From contig JABLXX010000007.1 in assembly GCA_013177825.1 (NCBI GenBank), positions 1 through 64,000 of the forward strand: a stretch of 64,000 nt of DNA. The letters are read 5' to 3'. The first letter of the stretch is position 1. Each line of letters starts with the position of its first letter. The notes below the pieces were generated by a model. The model was not told where the DNA came from. It saw nothing but the letters and a program-made list of their open reading frames with translations, and ran no database searches. Both the position numbers and the translations under genes were made by a program. Positions 8,616-16,699 of this stretch are shown here, piece by piece. This DNA comes from Syntrophaceae bacterium. Lineage in GTDB: Bacteria > Desulfobacterota > Syntrophia > Syntrophales > PHBD01.

Positions 8616-8652
8616 GAAAAAGGGGACGGATCGGTACTCCGTCCCCTTTTTC
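8616..8652. terminator. bidirectional terminator-like palindrome after sufB
   Basis: GGGGACGGA (8622-8630) pairs with TCCGTCCCC (8638-8646), with A5 before and T5 after the stem. The flanking A and T tracts make it the most terminator-like copy of the repeat family. Confidence 0.65.
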
Positions 8653-8787: not shown

Positions 8788-8840
8788 CGCCGTCAGGAAA
8801 CCCCCGACCGATCTCCCGAACCGGGAAAGGAGCGGATGCC

Positions 8841-11171
8841 ATGGACCTTGCCCCGTTTCTCAAGAGTGTCGACATTCTTTCCGATCTGGCCGATACCGAA
8901 ATCGCCCTTCTGGCCGAAAACGCCCAGTACCTGGAATTCACGGACGGCGCCCCGATTATCCGGCTGGGAGAGATCGGCCGCTACCTCTGGATCGTCTACG
9001 AAGGGGAGGTGGAGGTCACCCTCCCCTGCCCCGACGGTACGGAAAAGCCCATCGCCGCCCTGGAGCGGGGGGCCGTCCTCGGGGAGATGTCCATCATGAC
9101 GGGAGAGCCGGCTATGGCCAGCGTCGTTTCCGGCTGGTCGTCGAAGCTCCTCCGCATCCCCCGGGAGATCGTCTCCCGGGTCGTGGCGACCAATCCCAAA
9201 ACCCTGGGGAAGATCACCAAGATCATCACCCGGCGACTTCTCGCGGACGAGCGGATCCTGGCGGAGCGGGAAAAGGCCTGCGTCGCCCTGCGGGAAAACA
9301 CCGACCCTTACGACCTGAATTTCTCTTCCGTTTCCGCACCAATGAAGATCCTGGTCGTGAACAGCGGCAGCTCCTCCCTGAAATACTCGCTTTTCGACAC
9401 GGCCAAACCGGCCCCCCTCCTGGAAGGGGCCGTTGAGAAGATCGGCTCCGGCGAGGCGGTCCATCATTTACGGACCCCGGAGACCCGGAAGGATCTGCCC
9501 GCCGCGGGGATCGCCACGGTCGGAGACGCCCTCGCGGTCATGCTCGGCGCGCTGACGGACCCCGAGATCAAGACCCTGGGATCCCTGAACGGGATCGATG
9601 CGGTGGGACACCGGGTCGTCCATGGGGGAAAACGGTTCTCCAGCTCCACCGTCATCAGCGACGAGGTGAAGGAAGCCATCCGCTCCTACATCCCCATCGC
9701 ACCTCTCCACAACCCGTTCAACATCGAAGGGATCGAGGCCCTGGAGAAGCTGCTGCCGGCAGTCCCCCAGGTGGCCGTTTTCGATACGTCGTTCCATCAG
9801 ACCATGCCCGATACCGCCGCCACCTACGCCATTCCCTTCGCGGTCGGCGAGGAGGAACAGATCCGCCGCTACGGGTTCCATGGAACGAACCACCGCTTCG
9901 TCGCCATGAGCGCTGCGACCTTTCTCAAGCGGCCCGTCGGGGAACTGAAGATCATCTCCTGCCACCTGGGAAGCGGCGCCTCGGTCTGCGCCATCGATCA
10001 CGGCCGGAGCATCGACACGAGCATGGGCATGACGCCGCTGGAGGGGCTCATCATGGGCACCCGGGCCGGGGACCTCGATCCCGGGGCGATCCTTCACCTG
10101 ATGCGGCACCGGGGCATGACCCTCGAAGAGGTGGACCGGATGCTCAACAAGGAGAGCGGCCTCAAGGGAATCAGCGGCAGAAGCAACGACATGCGGGAGG
10201 TCCTGCAGGGGGCGGAGGCGGAGGATCCACACTGCAAGCTTGCTGTCAGCGCCTTCTGCTACCGCCTTCGGAAGTACATCGGATCCTACGTCGCCGCCCT
10301 GGGGGGGCTGGACGTCCTGATCTTCACCGGCGGCATCGGGGAAAACTCGCCGGAGATCCGGGCCCGGGTATGCCAGGGACTGGAAACGTTCGGCATCGAC
10401 CTTTCCGACGAGCTGAACCGTACGGCCAGGGCGGGCCGCGGGCAGCCCGCCGATATCTCCGACCCCGAATCGAAGGTGCGAGTCCTGATCGTACCGGCGG
10501 ACGAGGAGCGGATGATCGCCCGGGAGACCGTCCATGCCCTCGGCCGGGTGGTCTCACAGGAGACCATCGAGAAATTCCGCTCCCGGGGCATCCCCCTGTC
10601 CACATCGGCCCACCACGTCCATCTCTGCCGGGCGGACTTCGATGTTCTCTTCGGCCCCGGCGGGGACCTGACGCCGCGCACGGAGCTGAGCCAGCCGGGC
10701 CAGTTCGCCGCCGTGGAGACGGTGAATCTCGTCGGCCCCAAGGGGCGGATCGAGAAGGTCCGCATTCTGGGCCCCCTGCGCAAGGAATCCCAGGTGGAGG
10801 TCTCCCGGACCGAACAGTTCAAGCTCGGCATCGATGCACCCATCCGCGATTCCGGAGACCTGGAGGGCACGCCGGGGATCGTCATCGAAGGGGAGAAGGG
10901 CACGGTCCGGCTTGAGAAGGGCGTGATTTCAGCAAAGCGCCACATTCACATGTCCCCCGAGGAGGCTCTGAACCTGGGGCTGCGAGACCGGGACGTCGTG
11001 ATGGTGAAGGTCAAGGGCGTCCGGGAACTTATTTTCGGCGACGTCCTCGTCCGCGTTCATCCGACGTACCGGATGGACATGCACCTCGACACGGACGAGG
11101 CCAACGCCGCCCAGATCTCCGCCGGCGCCACGGGCTTCATCGAGGCCATCCAGCACCGGAACTTCATGTAG
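8841..11171 (+). CDS. cNMP-binding-like domain - acetate kinase - PduL phosphotransacetylase fusion
   Basis: One 776-residue protein with three domains. Residues 1-150 form a cyclic-nucleotide-binding-like beta-roll (GEVEVTL, GEMSIMTGEPAMASVV). Residues 168-567 are a full acetate kinase with VNSGSSSLKYS, GHRVVHGG, FDTSFHQTMP, YGFHGTNH, GTRAGDLDPG and TGGIGENSPEIR. Residues 583-776 are a full PduL phosphotransacylase with the His motifs HHVHL and RHIHMSPEEA and the terminal HLDTDEANA. It could turn acetyl-CoA into acetate and ATP within one chain. ATG 8841 has AAAGGAG upstream. No ribosome site precedes Met168 or the PduL part, so separate translation is unlikely. The sensor domain lacks the canonical phosphate-binding Arg. 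Confidence 0.92.
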   Translation: MDLAPFLKSVDILSDLADTEIALLAENAQYLEFTDGAPIIRLGEIGRYLWIVYEGEVEVTLPCPDGTEKPIAALERGAVLGEMSIMTGEPAMASVVSGWSSKLLRIPREIVSRVVATNPKTLGKITKIITRRLLADERILAEREKACVALRENTDPYDLNFSSVSAPMKILVVNSGSSSLKYSLFDTAKPAPLLEGAVEKIGSGEAVHHLRTPETRKDLPAAGIATVGDALAVMLGALTDPEIKTLGSLNGIDAVGHRVVHGGKRFSSSTVISDEVKEAIRSYIPIAPLHNPFNIEGIEALEKLLPAVPQVAVFDTSFHQTMPDTAATYAIPFAVGEEEQIRRYGFHGTNHRFVAMSAATFLKRPVGELKIISCHLGSGASVCAIDHGRSIDTSMGMTPLEGLIMGTRAGDLDPGAILHLMRHRGMTLEEVDRMLNKESGLKGISGRSNDMREVLQGAEAEDPHCKLAVSAFCYRLRKYIGSYVAALGGLDVLIFTGGIGENSPEIRARVCQGLETFGIDLSDELNRTARAGRGQPADISDPESKVRVLIVPADEERMIARETVHALGRVVSQETIEKFRSRGIPLSTSAHHVHLCRADFDVLFGPGGDLTPRTELSQPGQFAAVETVNLVGPKGRIEKVRILGPLRKESQVEVSRTEQFKLGIDAPIRDSGDLEGTPGIVIEGEKGTVRLEKGVISAKRHIHMSPEEALNLGLRDRDVVMVKVKGVRELIFGDVLVRVHPTYRMDMHLDTDEANAAQISAGATGFIEAIQHRNFM

Positions 11172-11178
11172 GGAGCGC

Positions 11179-11952
11179 ATGCCCCGAACAGCCCGTACGA
11201 GAGCCCTGGCAGCACTGCTGATTTTCCTGATCCTGACAGTGGCCGGCGAGTCGGCACCGGATGCGCCCCTCAGTAAAGGCCCTCTCGCCTCTTCTCGCCA
11301 GGCCATCCTCGTGGTGGCGGAAGGCTGGGACAGTCCGCAGGCGGAACTGACGCTCTTCGAGCGTGAAGGACCGGGAGATACCTGGCGGCCCGCCGCAGCG
11401 GCGGCGCCGGCCCTGCTAGGCCGCAGCGGACTTGGCTGGGGCGCGGGCTTCGACGGGGAGGCAAACCCCGCGGACCCGCGAAAACAGGAAGGCGACGGCC
11501 GGGCTCCCGCCGGCGTTTTCCGCATCGGCACCGCCTTCGGCTATGCCGCCGGTGATGAGGCCGCCTTTCTCAAACTTCCCTACATCGCCTCCCGGGAAGG
11601 CTGGGAGTGCGTGGACGATATCCATTCCGCCCACTACAACCGTCTGGCCAGGAAATTTGAAACGGCCCGGCCGGACTGGAACAGCTCCGAACAGATGGTC
11701 CTCCCGGACCACCGCTACCGCTGGGGCGCCCTCATCGAATACAATGCCGACCCACCCCGGCCCGGTCGCGGCTCCTGCATTTTTCTCCACATCTGGCTCG
11801 ACCCGTCCAGCCCGACATCGGGCTGCACGGCCCTCGATGAATCCAGCCTCCTGCAAATCCTCCGCCGCCTCCGGCCGGAGACAAATCCCGTCCTGATCCA
11901 GCTTCCCCGCCACGAATACGAGCGGCACCGGCAGGCCTGGGGCCTCCCCTGA
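11179..11952 (+). CDS. L,D-transpeptidase family protein (YkuD fold)
   Basis: A 257-residue exported protein with an N-terminal signal segment (residues 8-22, ALAALLIFLILTVAG). The segment GDGRAPAGVFRIGTAFGY and the catalytic HIWLDPSSPTSGCTAL, with His and Cys, mark the COG3786-like YkuD family that cross-links or modifies peptidoglycan. It starts 7 bases after the acetate kinase fusion, so the two are probably cotranscribed although functionally unrelated. The gene ends convergently with the SGNH hydrolase gene. Confidence 0.78.
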   Translation: MPRTARTRALAALLIFLILTVAGESAPDAPLSKGPLASSRQAILVVAEGWDSPQAELTLFEREGPGDTWRPAAAAAPALLGRSGLGWGAGFDGEANPADPRKQEGDGRAPAGVFRIGTAFGYAAGDEAAFLKLPYIASREGWECVDDIHSAHYNRLARKFETARPDWNSSEQMVLPDHRYRWGALIEYNADPPRPGRGSCIFLHIWLDPSSPTSGCTALDESSLLQILRRLRPETNPVLIQLPRHEYERHRQAWGLP

Positions 11953-14383: not shown

Positions 14384-15055
14384 TGGAGCTCCTCGCAGTC
14401 AGCATGCCTTCTCGGGAGCATCCCCTCTCCGGTAGGACAACCCCTGAATTTTGTTTTATCGCAAGTTGAATACCAATCCGACACGCTGAACAATCATCCC
14501 GTATTCATTATAAAATTACAATATTTCTAGCCGGAGGGGAGGGAAGAAACGGGACAATTCCGGCCGATAGAAGGGTGGAAGGACAAATATGTGGAAACGG
14601 AGTCCGCCGGAGGTTCGTCCCGGACTGCCACCAAATAGCTCACTCTATTTCCTTCGCCTGAACCTCAGCGGTCTGCCCCATCGTTCCGCATGGAACATGA
14701 TCATCCCGATATCATGGGGCCGCATTTGGATCCTCCTCCCGCTGCCCCGTTTTCATTCTTGCCCGAGGCTGACGGCGTCCGGCGGCACTCACGGGGTGAC
14801 TCACGGCATGAAGCTGGCTGGCGGAGCCATGGCAAGCACCGGTCCGGTGCAGTGTTCCGTAAACAACCAGCGTAGCGGGACAGCGAATACATCCAACGTC
14901 GGTTCGAGCGGCCATCCCTCCTTGACTTTTGATTTACCGGGCATTTAAAGTCTTCCGGACCGCGGAAGCAAAACAATGTGAACAGAGCGGGCATGGAGCA
15001 GCATCCCCGGCTATATCCGGGACACACATCGCAGAAACGGATAAGGGAGTATCCT
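14384..15055. other. 670-base divergent intergenic region
   Basis: The region separates the EAL gene (minus) from the sigma-54 activator gene (plus). A TATAAT hexamer reads leftward at 14507-14512, and TTGTAA with GATGAT (spacer 17) is another leftward candidate. The open frame at 14589-14948 has no recognisable protein and lacks a ribosome site, so I read it as noncoding. Confidence 0.5.
14922..14949 (+). promoter_or_regulatory. putative sigma-70 promoter of the sigma-54 activator gene
   Basis: TTGACT (14922-14927) and TTTAAA (14944-14949) are separated by 16 bases. The leader to ATG 15056 would be about 100 bases. Confidence 0.4.
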
Positions 15056-16699
15056 ATGTATGTAACAGCTCGGGACAGCGCGCTGTACCTCAGAAGCATG
15101 TTTCGCCGGCAGATCGATTATTCCCTGGAGAGAAGCTGCGCCGTCGGCATCAATCAGAACATAAAAAAAGCCCCTGTAACATTCAGCAAAGAGTACATCA
15201 ACGACCGGTCCGAACAGGTGAGGAGACTCGTCGATGCGGCAACGCCCGTCCTGGAGCAATTCCACTCCATGCTCGAGCTGTCGCGCTTCGTGGTGGCCGT
15301 GGCCGACGAGAAAGCCGTCATCATCGCCGGCACGGGAAACAGCAGGTGGTCCGAGAGCGGGATGCGTTGCGGCTTCAATATCGGAACGAGCTGCAGCGAG
15401 GAATACATCGGGACCAACGCGATCGGGACCTCTCTTGCCACCGGCCAGCCCATGTGTGTCATCGGGGAGGAGAATTACATCAAGCAGTGGCAGGATTCGG
15501 CCAATGCGGCAACGGTGATCCGGGACCCCTTCACGGGGGAAGTTGCCGGTGCCGTGTGCCTGACCTGCTTCATCAAGCATTTTCACATATTTGCACTGGG
15601 CATCGTGCAGTCCATCGCCGGCATGATCGAAGAAAGACTGAGATACGCCCCGGCACCGGCCGTTCGAATGAACTGGACATCAAGGTCTTCCATCCCCTCC
15701 GTACCCCGAGCGGGCGCGAGAACCGCCGCAGGCGTTCGCTTTCCCGAAGGAGAAGACCCGTCCGCATGGACCCGGTTGCATCGCGAGTTCATATTCGGCT
15801 CCGCCGGCATCGGCAGGCTCCTCGGGAAGGCCCGGAAGGCCGCGCAATACGATTCGACCAAGCTGATCCTGGGAGAAAGCGGCGTGGGAAAGGAGATCCT
15901 AGCGGGTTATATTCATGAACACAGCCGGCGCAGGGATCTTCCGTTCGTGGCCGTCAACTGTGCGGCCATCCCGCCCGACCTGATGGCGAGCGAATTTTTC
16001 GGCTATGAGGCGGGAGCATTTACCGGGGCCAGGCGGGGAGGGAGCCCCGGCCGGTTCGAGCAGGCGGCGGGAGGATCCATCTATCTTGATGAAATCAGCG
16101 AAATGAGCATGAACCTTCAAGCTTACCTGCTGCGCGTCATCGAGGACAAGACGGTGACCCCCCTCGGCGGCGGCCGGCCGAAGCGGGTCGACGTCCAGAT
16201 CATCACCTCGACGAATCGGGACCTGAGGGAGATGGTGAAAGAAAAAAGCTTTCGGGGCGACCTGTACCATCGCCTCAACGTGATTTCGTTCCACATCCCG
16301 CCCCTGCGGGAGCGCCGGGAGGACATCCCCCGGCTGGTGAACCATTTCCTCCGGAAAATGAGCGACAGGCACGGAGGGGACATGAAGGAGATGTCGGGCC
16401 GGGCCATGGGAGCGCTGCTCGACTATCCCTGGCCCGGCAACGTGCGGGAACTGGAAAATGTGATCGAGACGGCCTGCATCTTCTCGGAAGGGCGGGTGAT
16501 CGAAGCCTGTGACCTCAGGGAGGACATCGCCGGCGGCCGCCACGCGGAATCGCCGGACTCCCTGGAGCTGCGCCGCATCCGGACCGCCCTCGGGACATGC
16601 CGGTGGAACCTCTCCCGCGCTTCCCGTTCGCTGGGAATGGCCCGCTCAACGCTGTACCGGAAGATGGCAAAGTACCGCCTTTCCAGGGAGAATGCGTAA
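15056..16699 (+). CDS. sigma-54-dependent activator with GAF-like sensor (AcoR type)
   Basis: A 547-residue enhancer-binding protein. Residues 60-210 form a GAF-like sensor as in AcoR/DhaR regulators (NIGTSCSEEYIGTNAIGT). The AAA+ domain has Walker A GESGVGKE, the sigma-54 contact loop EAGAFTGA, Walker B SIYLDEISEM and LYHRLNVISF with PPLRERREDI. The C-terminal Fis-type helix-turn-helix reads RASRSLGMARSTLYRKM. ATG 15056 follows AAGGGAG. Such proteins switch on sigma-54 promoters; rpoN is at 33890. The targets are unknown; the downstream convergent operon or hydrogen/acyl metabolism genes are candidates only by proximity. Confidence 0.88.
   Translation: MYVTARDSALYLRSMFRRQIDYSLERSCAVGINQNIKKAPVTFSKEYINDRSEQVRRLVDAATPVLEQFHSMLELSRFVVAVADEKAVIIAGTGNSRWSESGMRCGFNIGTSCSEEYIGTNAIGTSLATGQPMCVIGEENYIKQWQDSANAATVIRDPFTGEVAGAVCLTCFIKHFHIFALGIVQSIAGMIEERLRYAPAPAVRMNWTSRSSIPSVPRAGARTAAGVRFPEGEDPSAWTRLHREFIFGSAGIGRLLGKARKAAQYDSTKLILGESGVGKEILAGYIHEHSRRRDLPFVAVNCAAIPPDLMASEFFGYEAGAFTGARRGGSPGRFEQAAGGSIYLDEISEMSMNLQAYLLRVIEDKTVTPLGGGRPKRVDVQIITSTNRDLREMVKEKSFRGDLYHRLNVISFHIPPLRERREDIPRLVNHFLRKMSDRHGGDMKEMSGRAMGALLDYPWPGNVRELENVIETACIFSEGRVIEACDLREDIAGGRHAESPDSLELRRIRTALGTCRWNLSRASRSLGMARSTLYRKMAKYRLSRENA

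Follow-up and report, generated by a model that had tools for sequence, protein, structure and literature searches.

A single protein of an uncultured syntrophic-type bacterium holds both of the enzymes that lead from acetyl-CoA to acetate and ATP. The gene lies in a 64,000-nucleotide stretch of contig JABLXX010000007.1 from a Syntrophaceae bacterium (here called the window), in which direct reading of the sequence reveals an uninterrupted frame of 776 codons running from ATG 8841 to the stop codon at 11169–11171. Its product joins a front domain with the fold of a cyclic-nucleotide-binding domain (CNBD), an acetate kinase (Ack) and a PduL-type phosphotransacylase (Pfam domain PTAC). The best explanation for the whole, which we regard as likely, is a bifunctional PduL and Ack enzyme that is probably dimeric and whose CNBD, lacking the characteristic arginine, most likely adjusts activity or assembly.

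A three-domain fusion protein

Matches to all three Pfam domains exceed the curated cut-offs. The front domain matches cNMP_binding (E = 2.7e-14; 53.3 bits versus a cut-off of 27.5), the central domain matches Acetate_kinase over positions 1–392 of the 392-position profile (E = 5.6e-143; 476.8 bits versus 22) and the C-terminal domain matches PTAC (E = 1.4e-74; 250 bits versus 25). The NCBIfam models ackA and phosphate propanoyltransferase are also above their cut-offs. An AlphaFold model of the whole protein (mean pLDDT 82, pTM 0.82) resembles acetate kinases and the PduL structure 5CUO, with the Ack part poorly modelled in short stretches within residues 325–343 and 396–413.

Table 1. Features of the fusion gene and its upstream region in the window.
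Feature	Positions	Strand	Details and basis
Terminator-like hairpin	8622–8646	+	9 G+C-rich pairs extended by A-U pairs; T run 8647–8651
AAGGAG, ribosome-binding-site-like	8827–8832	+	8 nucleotides 5′ of ATG 8841; direct reading
CNBD-like, acetate kinase and PduL fusion gene	8841–11171	+	776 amino acids plus stop
Front domain, residues 1–152 (CNBD β-roll and C-terminal helices)	8841–9296	+	Pfam core residues 32–118 = 8934–9194; AlphaFold, Foldseek
Phosphate-binding-cassette position GEMSIMTGEPAMAS	9081–9122	+	Glu82 kept, Arg replaced by Ala91
DPYDL linker motif, residues 155–159	9303–9317	+	Alignment
Acetate kinase domain, residues 169–561	9345–10523	+	Pfam, alignment
PduL/PTAC phosphotransacylase domain, residues 586–759	10596–11117	+	Pfam, alignment

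The original prediction, made from the sequence, had placed a cNMP-binding-like domain, a full acetate kinase and a full PduL in one frame and had called for a search of this architecture. That search yielded 46 homologue rows in which a single frame encodes all three domains, from Syntrophales, other Desulfobacterota, Nitrospirota and Myxococcota, which together with the Pfam and NCBIfam matches bears out the description. The underlying scan of genome contigs gave 64 loci, with more added later; an apparent CAP-Ack frame (L126) and an apparent Ack-PTAC frame (L026) were set aside because contig ends cut both. Linker residues D155, P156 and Y157 are invariant in 27 aligned fusions.

The closest homologue (L006, 92% identical) derives from an independent MAG, and comparison with it gives dN/dS values of 0.10 for the front domain, 0.10 for Ack and 0.09 for PTAC, which indicate purifying selection on all three domains. 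Because the same frame recurs in dozens of genomes and dN/dS is low in every domain, the architecture is not the product of an assembly error or frameshift.

Gene start and surroundings

An alternative upstream start at GTG 8745 was considered less likely than ATG 8841 because homologues begin at the Met aligned with the latter. Farther upstream, the terminator-like hairpin (minimum free energy of −27.4 kcal/mol; z = −6.0 versus shuffled sequences) is located after sufB and closes the sufC-sufB-like genes, setting them apart from the fusion gene, which therefore probably has its own promoter. A scan for a sigma-70 promoter upstream of the gene gave none.

Downstream, a 257-amino-acid frame (window positions 11179–11952) begins 8 bases past the fusion stop codon; it has no Pfam match at E 1e-5 and does not recur next to the fusion in as many as three relatives. 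Positions 14978–16699 encode a sigma-54-dependent regulator with AAA and Fis-type HTH domains, relatives of which lie close to the fusion at five further loci. A conserved operon was dropped as a functional clue, since gene neighbours are common to close relatives only.

Both catalytic domains retain their active-site residues

The seven catalytic and binding residues N7, R91, H123, D148, H180, R241 and E384 (numbering of M. thermophila acetate kinase) are all present in the window protein; among 34 fusion rows, each is likewise present in every row that covers its position. The match to the M. thermophila structures (PDB 1TUU/1G99) is full-length with the catalytic residues kept; the window protein differs in being fused on both sides and in carrying Ser at N211, as do 20 of the 34 fusions. 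The possibility that this Ser marks a degenerate kinase is weakened by the stand-alone kinases, which also show Ser, Ala or Asp at that position.

The zinc ligands of the PduL domain are H592, H594, E653, H701, H703 and H748 in the window protein. Across the family, H48, H50, E109, H157, H159 and H204 (R. palustris numbering) are kept in 35–36 of 36 rows, one row being cut short, and R103 is Arg in the window protein, Arg in 32 rows and Lys in three; the roles of these residues are those given in passages of PMC4784909. Compared with R. palustris PduL (PDB 5CUO), the domain shares the fold (TM 0.96 over the target, rmsd 1.0 Å, 49% identity), the zinc ligands and R103. It differs in lying C-terminal to Ack, in not being associated with a microcompartment and in family-wide changes at three positions (N46 to A, R47 to H and K70 mostly to S or T). 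A search of the host genome for the microcompartment shell protein family PF00936 gave no match, with positive controls, in agreement with the earlier claim that PduL occurs here without microcompartments. That both enzymes are complete, as had also been proposed, is upheld by the full Pfam profiles and by the conservation of active-site residues.

The front domain lacks the phosphate-binding arginine

An AlphaFold model of the front domain (mean pLDDT 88) matches the CNBDs of CRP, PKA and PKG in Foldseek comparisons, with trypanosome PKAR structures (6h4g, 6flo and 6hyq) among the closest folds. However, none of the 41 fusion members whose cassette could be read has Arg or Lys at E+9 or E+10, the cassette position, where the residue is mostly Ala, Thr or Ser. 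In a profile alignment to PKG CNBDs, the PKG Arg falls opposite the Ala of the front domain. The cassette Glu82 is Glu in 37 of the 41 members and Asp in four, and in seven members an Arg or Lys stands at E+8, just before the cassette position.

Because the phosphate-binding arginine is missing in all 41 members checked, a cyclic-nucleotide response is not supported, and the domain is unlikely, judging from these alignments, to be a canonical cyclic-nucleotide receptor. The original prediction of a cyclic-nucleotide sensor is not supported in this respect, and 'sensor' is the one term of the original description that the sequence itself does not show. A sensor domain through which cAMP or cGMP turns the enzyme on or off would be consistent with the CNBD fold seen by Pfam, the model and fold matches, with the retained Glu82, which canonical CNBDs use on the ribose 2′-OH, and perhaps with a shifted contact in the seven members that have Arg or Lys at E+8. 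Furthermore, the host genome encodes eight class III cyclase domains and 13 PF00027 matches, of which at least four are read as Arg-bearing (L093, L094, L096 and L099), and so cyclic-nucleotide signalling may exist in this organism. Given the arginine-less cassette, we nevertheless judge such a sensor very unlikely. Mycobacterial CNBD-linked acyltransferases are cAMP-regulated. They too place a CNBD ahead of an acetyl-CoA-using enzyme (PDB 4AVA and 4ORF; a weak fold match), whereas their catalytic domain is a different one and 4ORF is titled as cAMP-binding. Binding of a neutral nucleoside also seems quite improbable. The trypanosomatid PKA CNBDs likewise lack the phosphate-binding Arg, their structures are among the closest folds, the cassette Glu is kept here, and CNBDs are able to switch to purine nucleosides (PMC10959531), but the Glu at E+2 that holds the ribose in trypanosome PKA (TbPKAR E311, opposite PKA A202; PMC10959531) is Ser in the window protein (S84, at least 90% conserved). 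The role we favour for the front domain is adjustment of activity or assembly, which might be exerted through dimerization or through a ligand other than a cyclic nucleotide bound in the canonical way.

Metabolic setting

The host genome contains a single PduL domain and no canonical phosphotransacetylase (Pta) over the cut-off. In the Desulfobacterota sample, canonical Pta (TIGR00651, E ≤ 1e-50) occurs in none of the 10 fusion genomes but in 77 of the 122 other genomes with Ack (Fisher p = 9e-5). Kinship confounds this comparison, in that four Ack genomes from the same order likewise lack Pta although they have no fusion. Among 24 fusion genomes searched by locus, Pta exceeds the cut-off in three, and another three show a full-length match of lower strength; nearly every PduL domain in these 24 genomes forms part of a long fused frame, apart from one 274-amino-acid frame and one 62-amino-acid fragment. 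The fusion probably stands in for the missing canonical Pta in most host lineages.

To conclude from the lack of Pta that the fusion is the sole route would be too strong, as the host genome encodes Ptb-type proteins that pass the NCBI 'phosphate acetyltransferase' model PRK11890. A stand-alone acetate kinase gene (L002; G000:C14, from about 26731) is positioned directly upstream of xsc, which exceeds the NCBI cut-off for sulfoacetaldehyde acetyltransferase. Sulfoacetaldehyde acetyltransferase makes acetyl-phosphate, and for this reason the stand-alone kinase may serve sulfonate degradation. At another locus (L081/L003; G000:C1, about 996800–999300), two phosphate-butyryltransferase-like genes are followed by a butyrate kinase gene, an arrangement (Ptb-Ptb-Buk) that resembles clusters reported for S. 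aciditrophicus. With the stand-alone AckA, the Ptb-type proteins and the Ptb-Ptb-Buk cluster also encoded in the genome, acetate need not pass mainly through the fusion. S. aciditrophicus itself has no homologue of Ack or Pta and uses Acs instead (PMC4992975); the order is therefore mixed in this trait.

Distribution and history of the fusion

About ten of 395 Desulfobacterota genomes carry the fusion, two of them (G130 and G366) as an Ack-PTAC form without the front domain. In Nitrospirota, the fusion occurs in 10 of 246 genomes, each with a second match that is either another fusion or a form without PTAC or the front domain. Strong matches are found in 83 of 284 Myxococcota genomes and amount to about 80 fusions, of which four are three-domain; most of the others align over Ack-PTAC only, and the ten sequences examined are two-domain.

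Some genomes have two diverged full three-domain copies, as seen in Nitrospirota (G405, G407, G413, G415, G588 and G652) and in Syntrophaceae (the pairs L007/L037 and L009/L020). Forms without PTAC include a 575-amino-acid CNBD-Ack frame (L127; G658:C20) and a 446-amino-acid Ack with a longer N-terminus (L036).

In a tree of Ack domains, 62 fused-type rows fall on one side of a branch with support of 97/92 and constitute one clade, with three of these rows being without PTAC (L036, L127 and L126, the last cut by a contig end). The three-domain forms are nested in this clade (92/79, not a starred branch). This pattern suggests that an Ack-PTAC fusion is older and that the front domain was probably added to it once, with some losses, an order of events that we infer from a tree with a midpoint root only. 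The Myxococcota labels of several 'Deltaproteobacteria bacterium' MAGs in the tree look unreliable.

Proposed function

Because both enzymes retain their catalytic residues, the best reading of the fusion, and one for which the sequence gives good support, is a bifunctional enzyme that probably converts acetyl-CoA, phosphate and ADP to acetate, CoA and ATP, or carries out the reverse reaction. On its two-zinc site, the PduL domain would turn acetyl-CoA and phosphate into acetyl-phosphate and CoA, and the Ack domain would then transfer the phosphoryl group of acetyl-phosphate to ADP to yield acetate and ATP. In principle, each step can run in either direction, and we infer the one that operates in vivo. 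The protein probably dimerizes through its Ack domain, like ordinary acetate kinases, and acetyl-phosphate might be transferred within the protein.

The enzyme could instead run mainly backwards, from acetate to acetyl-CoA, or set the level of acetyl-phosphate rather than make ATP. The reversibility of both reactions and the further acyl-CoA and acyl-phosphate enzymes in the genome agree with this, but the gene surroundings offer no pointer to it, and we consider it doubtful. Propionyl-CoA, or some other short acyl-CoA, is unlikely to be the real substrate. The name of the PduL family refers to propanoyl transfer and the kinase belongs to the acetate/propionate kinase subfamily, yet the best kinase matches of the Ack domain are the acetate kinases of T. 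maritima and M. thermophila, and the genome has no shell gene. A more elaborate form of the bifunctional enzyme, which we put forward only tentatively, would be a self-contained, ligand-regulated enzyme of substrate-level phosphorylation, in which acetyl-phosphate passes between the active sites. Its arginine-less CNBD would respond to some ligand that is not a cyclic nucleotide and thereby set how much flux runs between acetyl-CoA and ATP in anaerobes that are limited for energy.

Relation to known fusions and implications

Erbilgin et al. (2016; PMC4784909) state in the relevant passages that PduL domains are found within multidomain proteins, most of them annotated as Ack, and that PduL may replace Pta in Ack fusions, where fusion may aid channelling. 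Those proteins and the present family share PF06130 in Ack-annotated multidomain proteins and the lack of an encapsulation peptide; the CNBD-like front domain and the biochemistry of the fusion are absent from those passages. The literature searched, which covers few subscription journals, gave no description of the three-domain form. Thus, the original view that no three-domain example had been characterized stands as far as that search goes, whereas the Ack-PduL fusion itself was already noted in 2016, in the passages cited, and is common in Myxococcota. What is new seems to be the addition of an arginine-less CNBD to this known fusion, in a three-domain form that appears undescribed.

A plain 'acetate kinase' annotation conceals the phosphotransacetylase of these proteins. 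Many relatives in the same order carry a fused Ack-PduL, and so the acetate-to-ATP step differs between closely related syntrophic-type lineages. The family also offers a CNBD for ligand searches and is a direct test case for the channelling of acetyl-phosphate by fused Ack and PduL.
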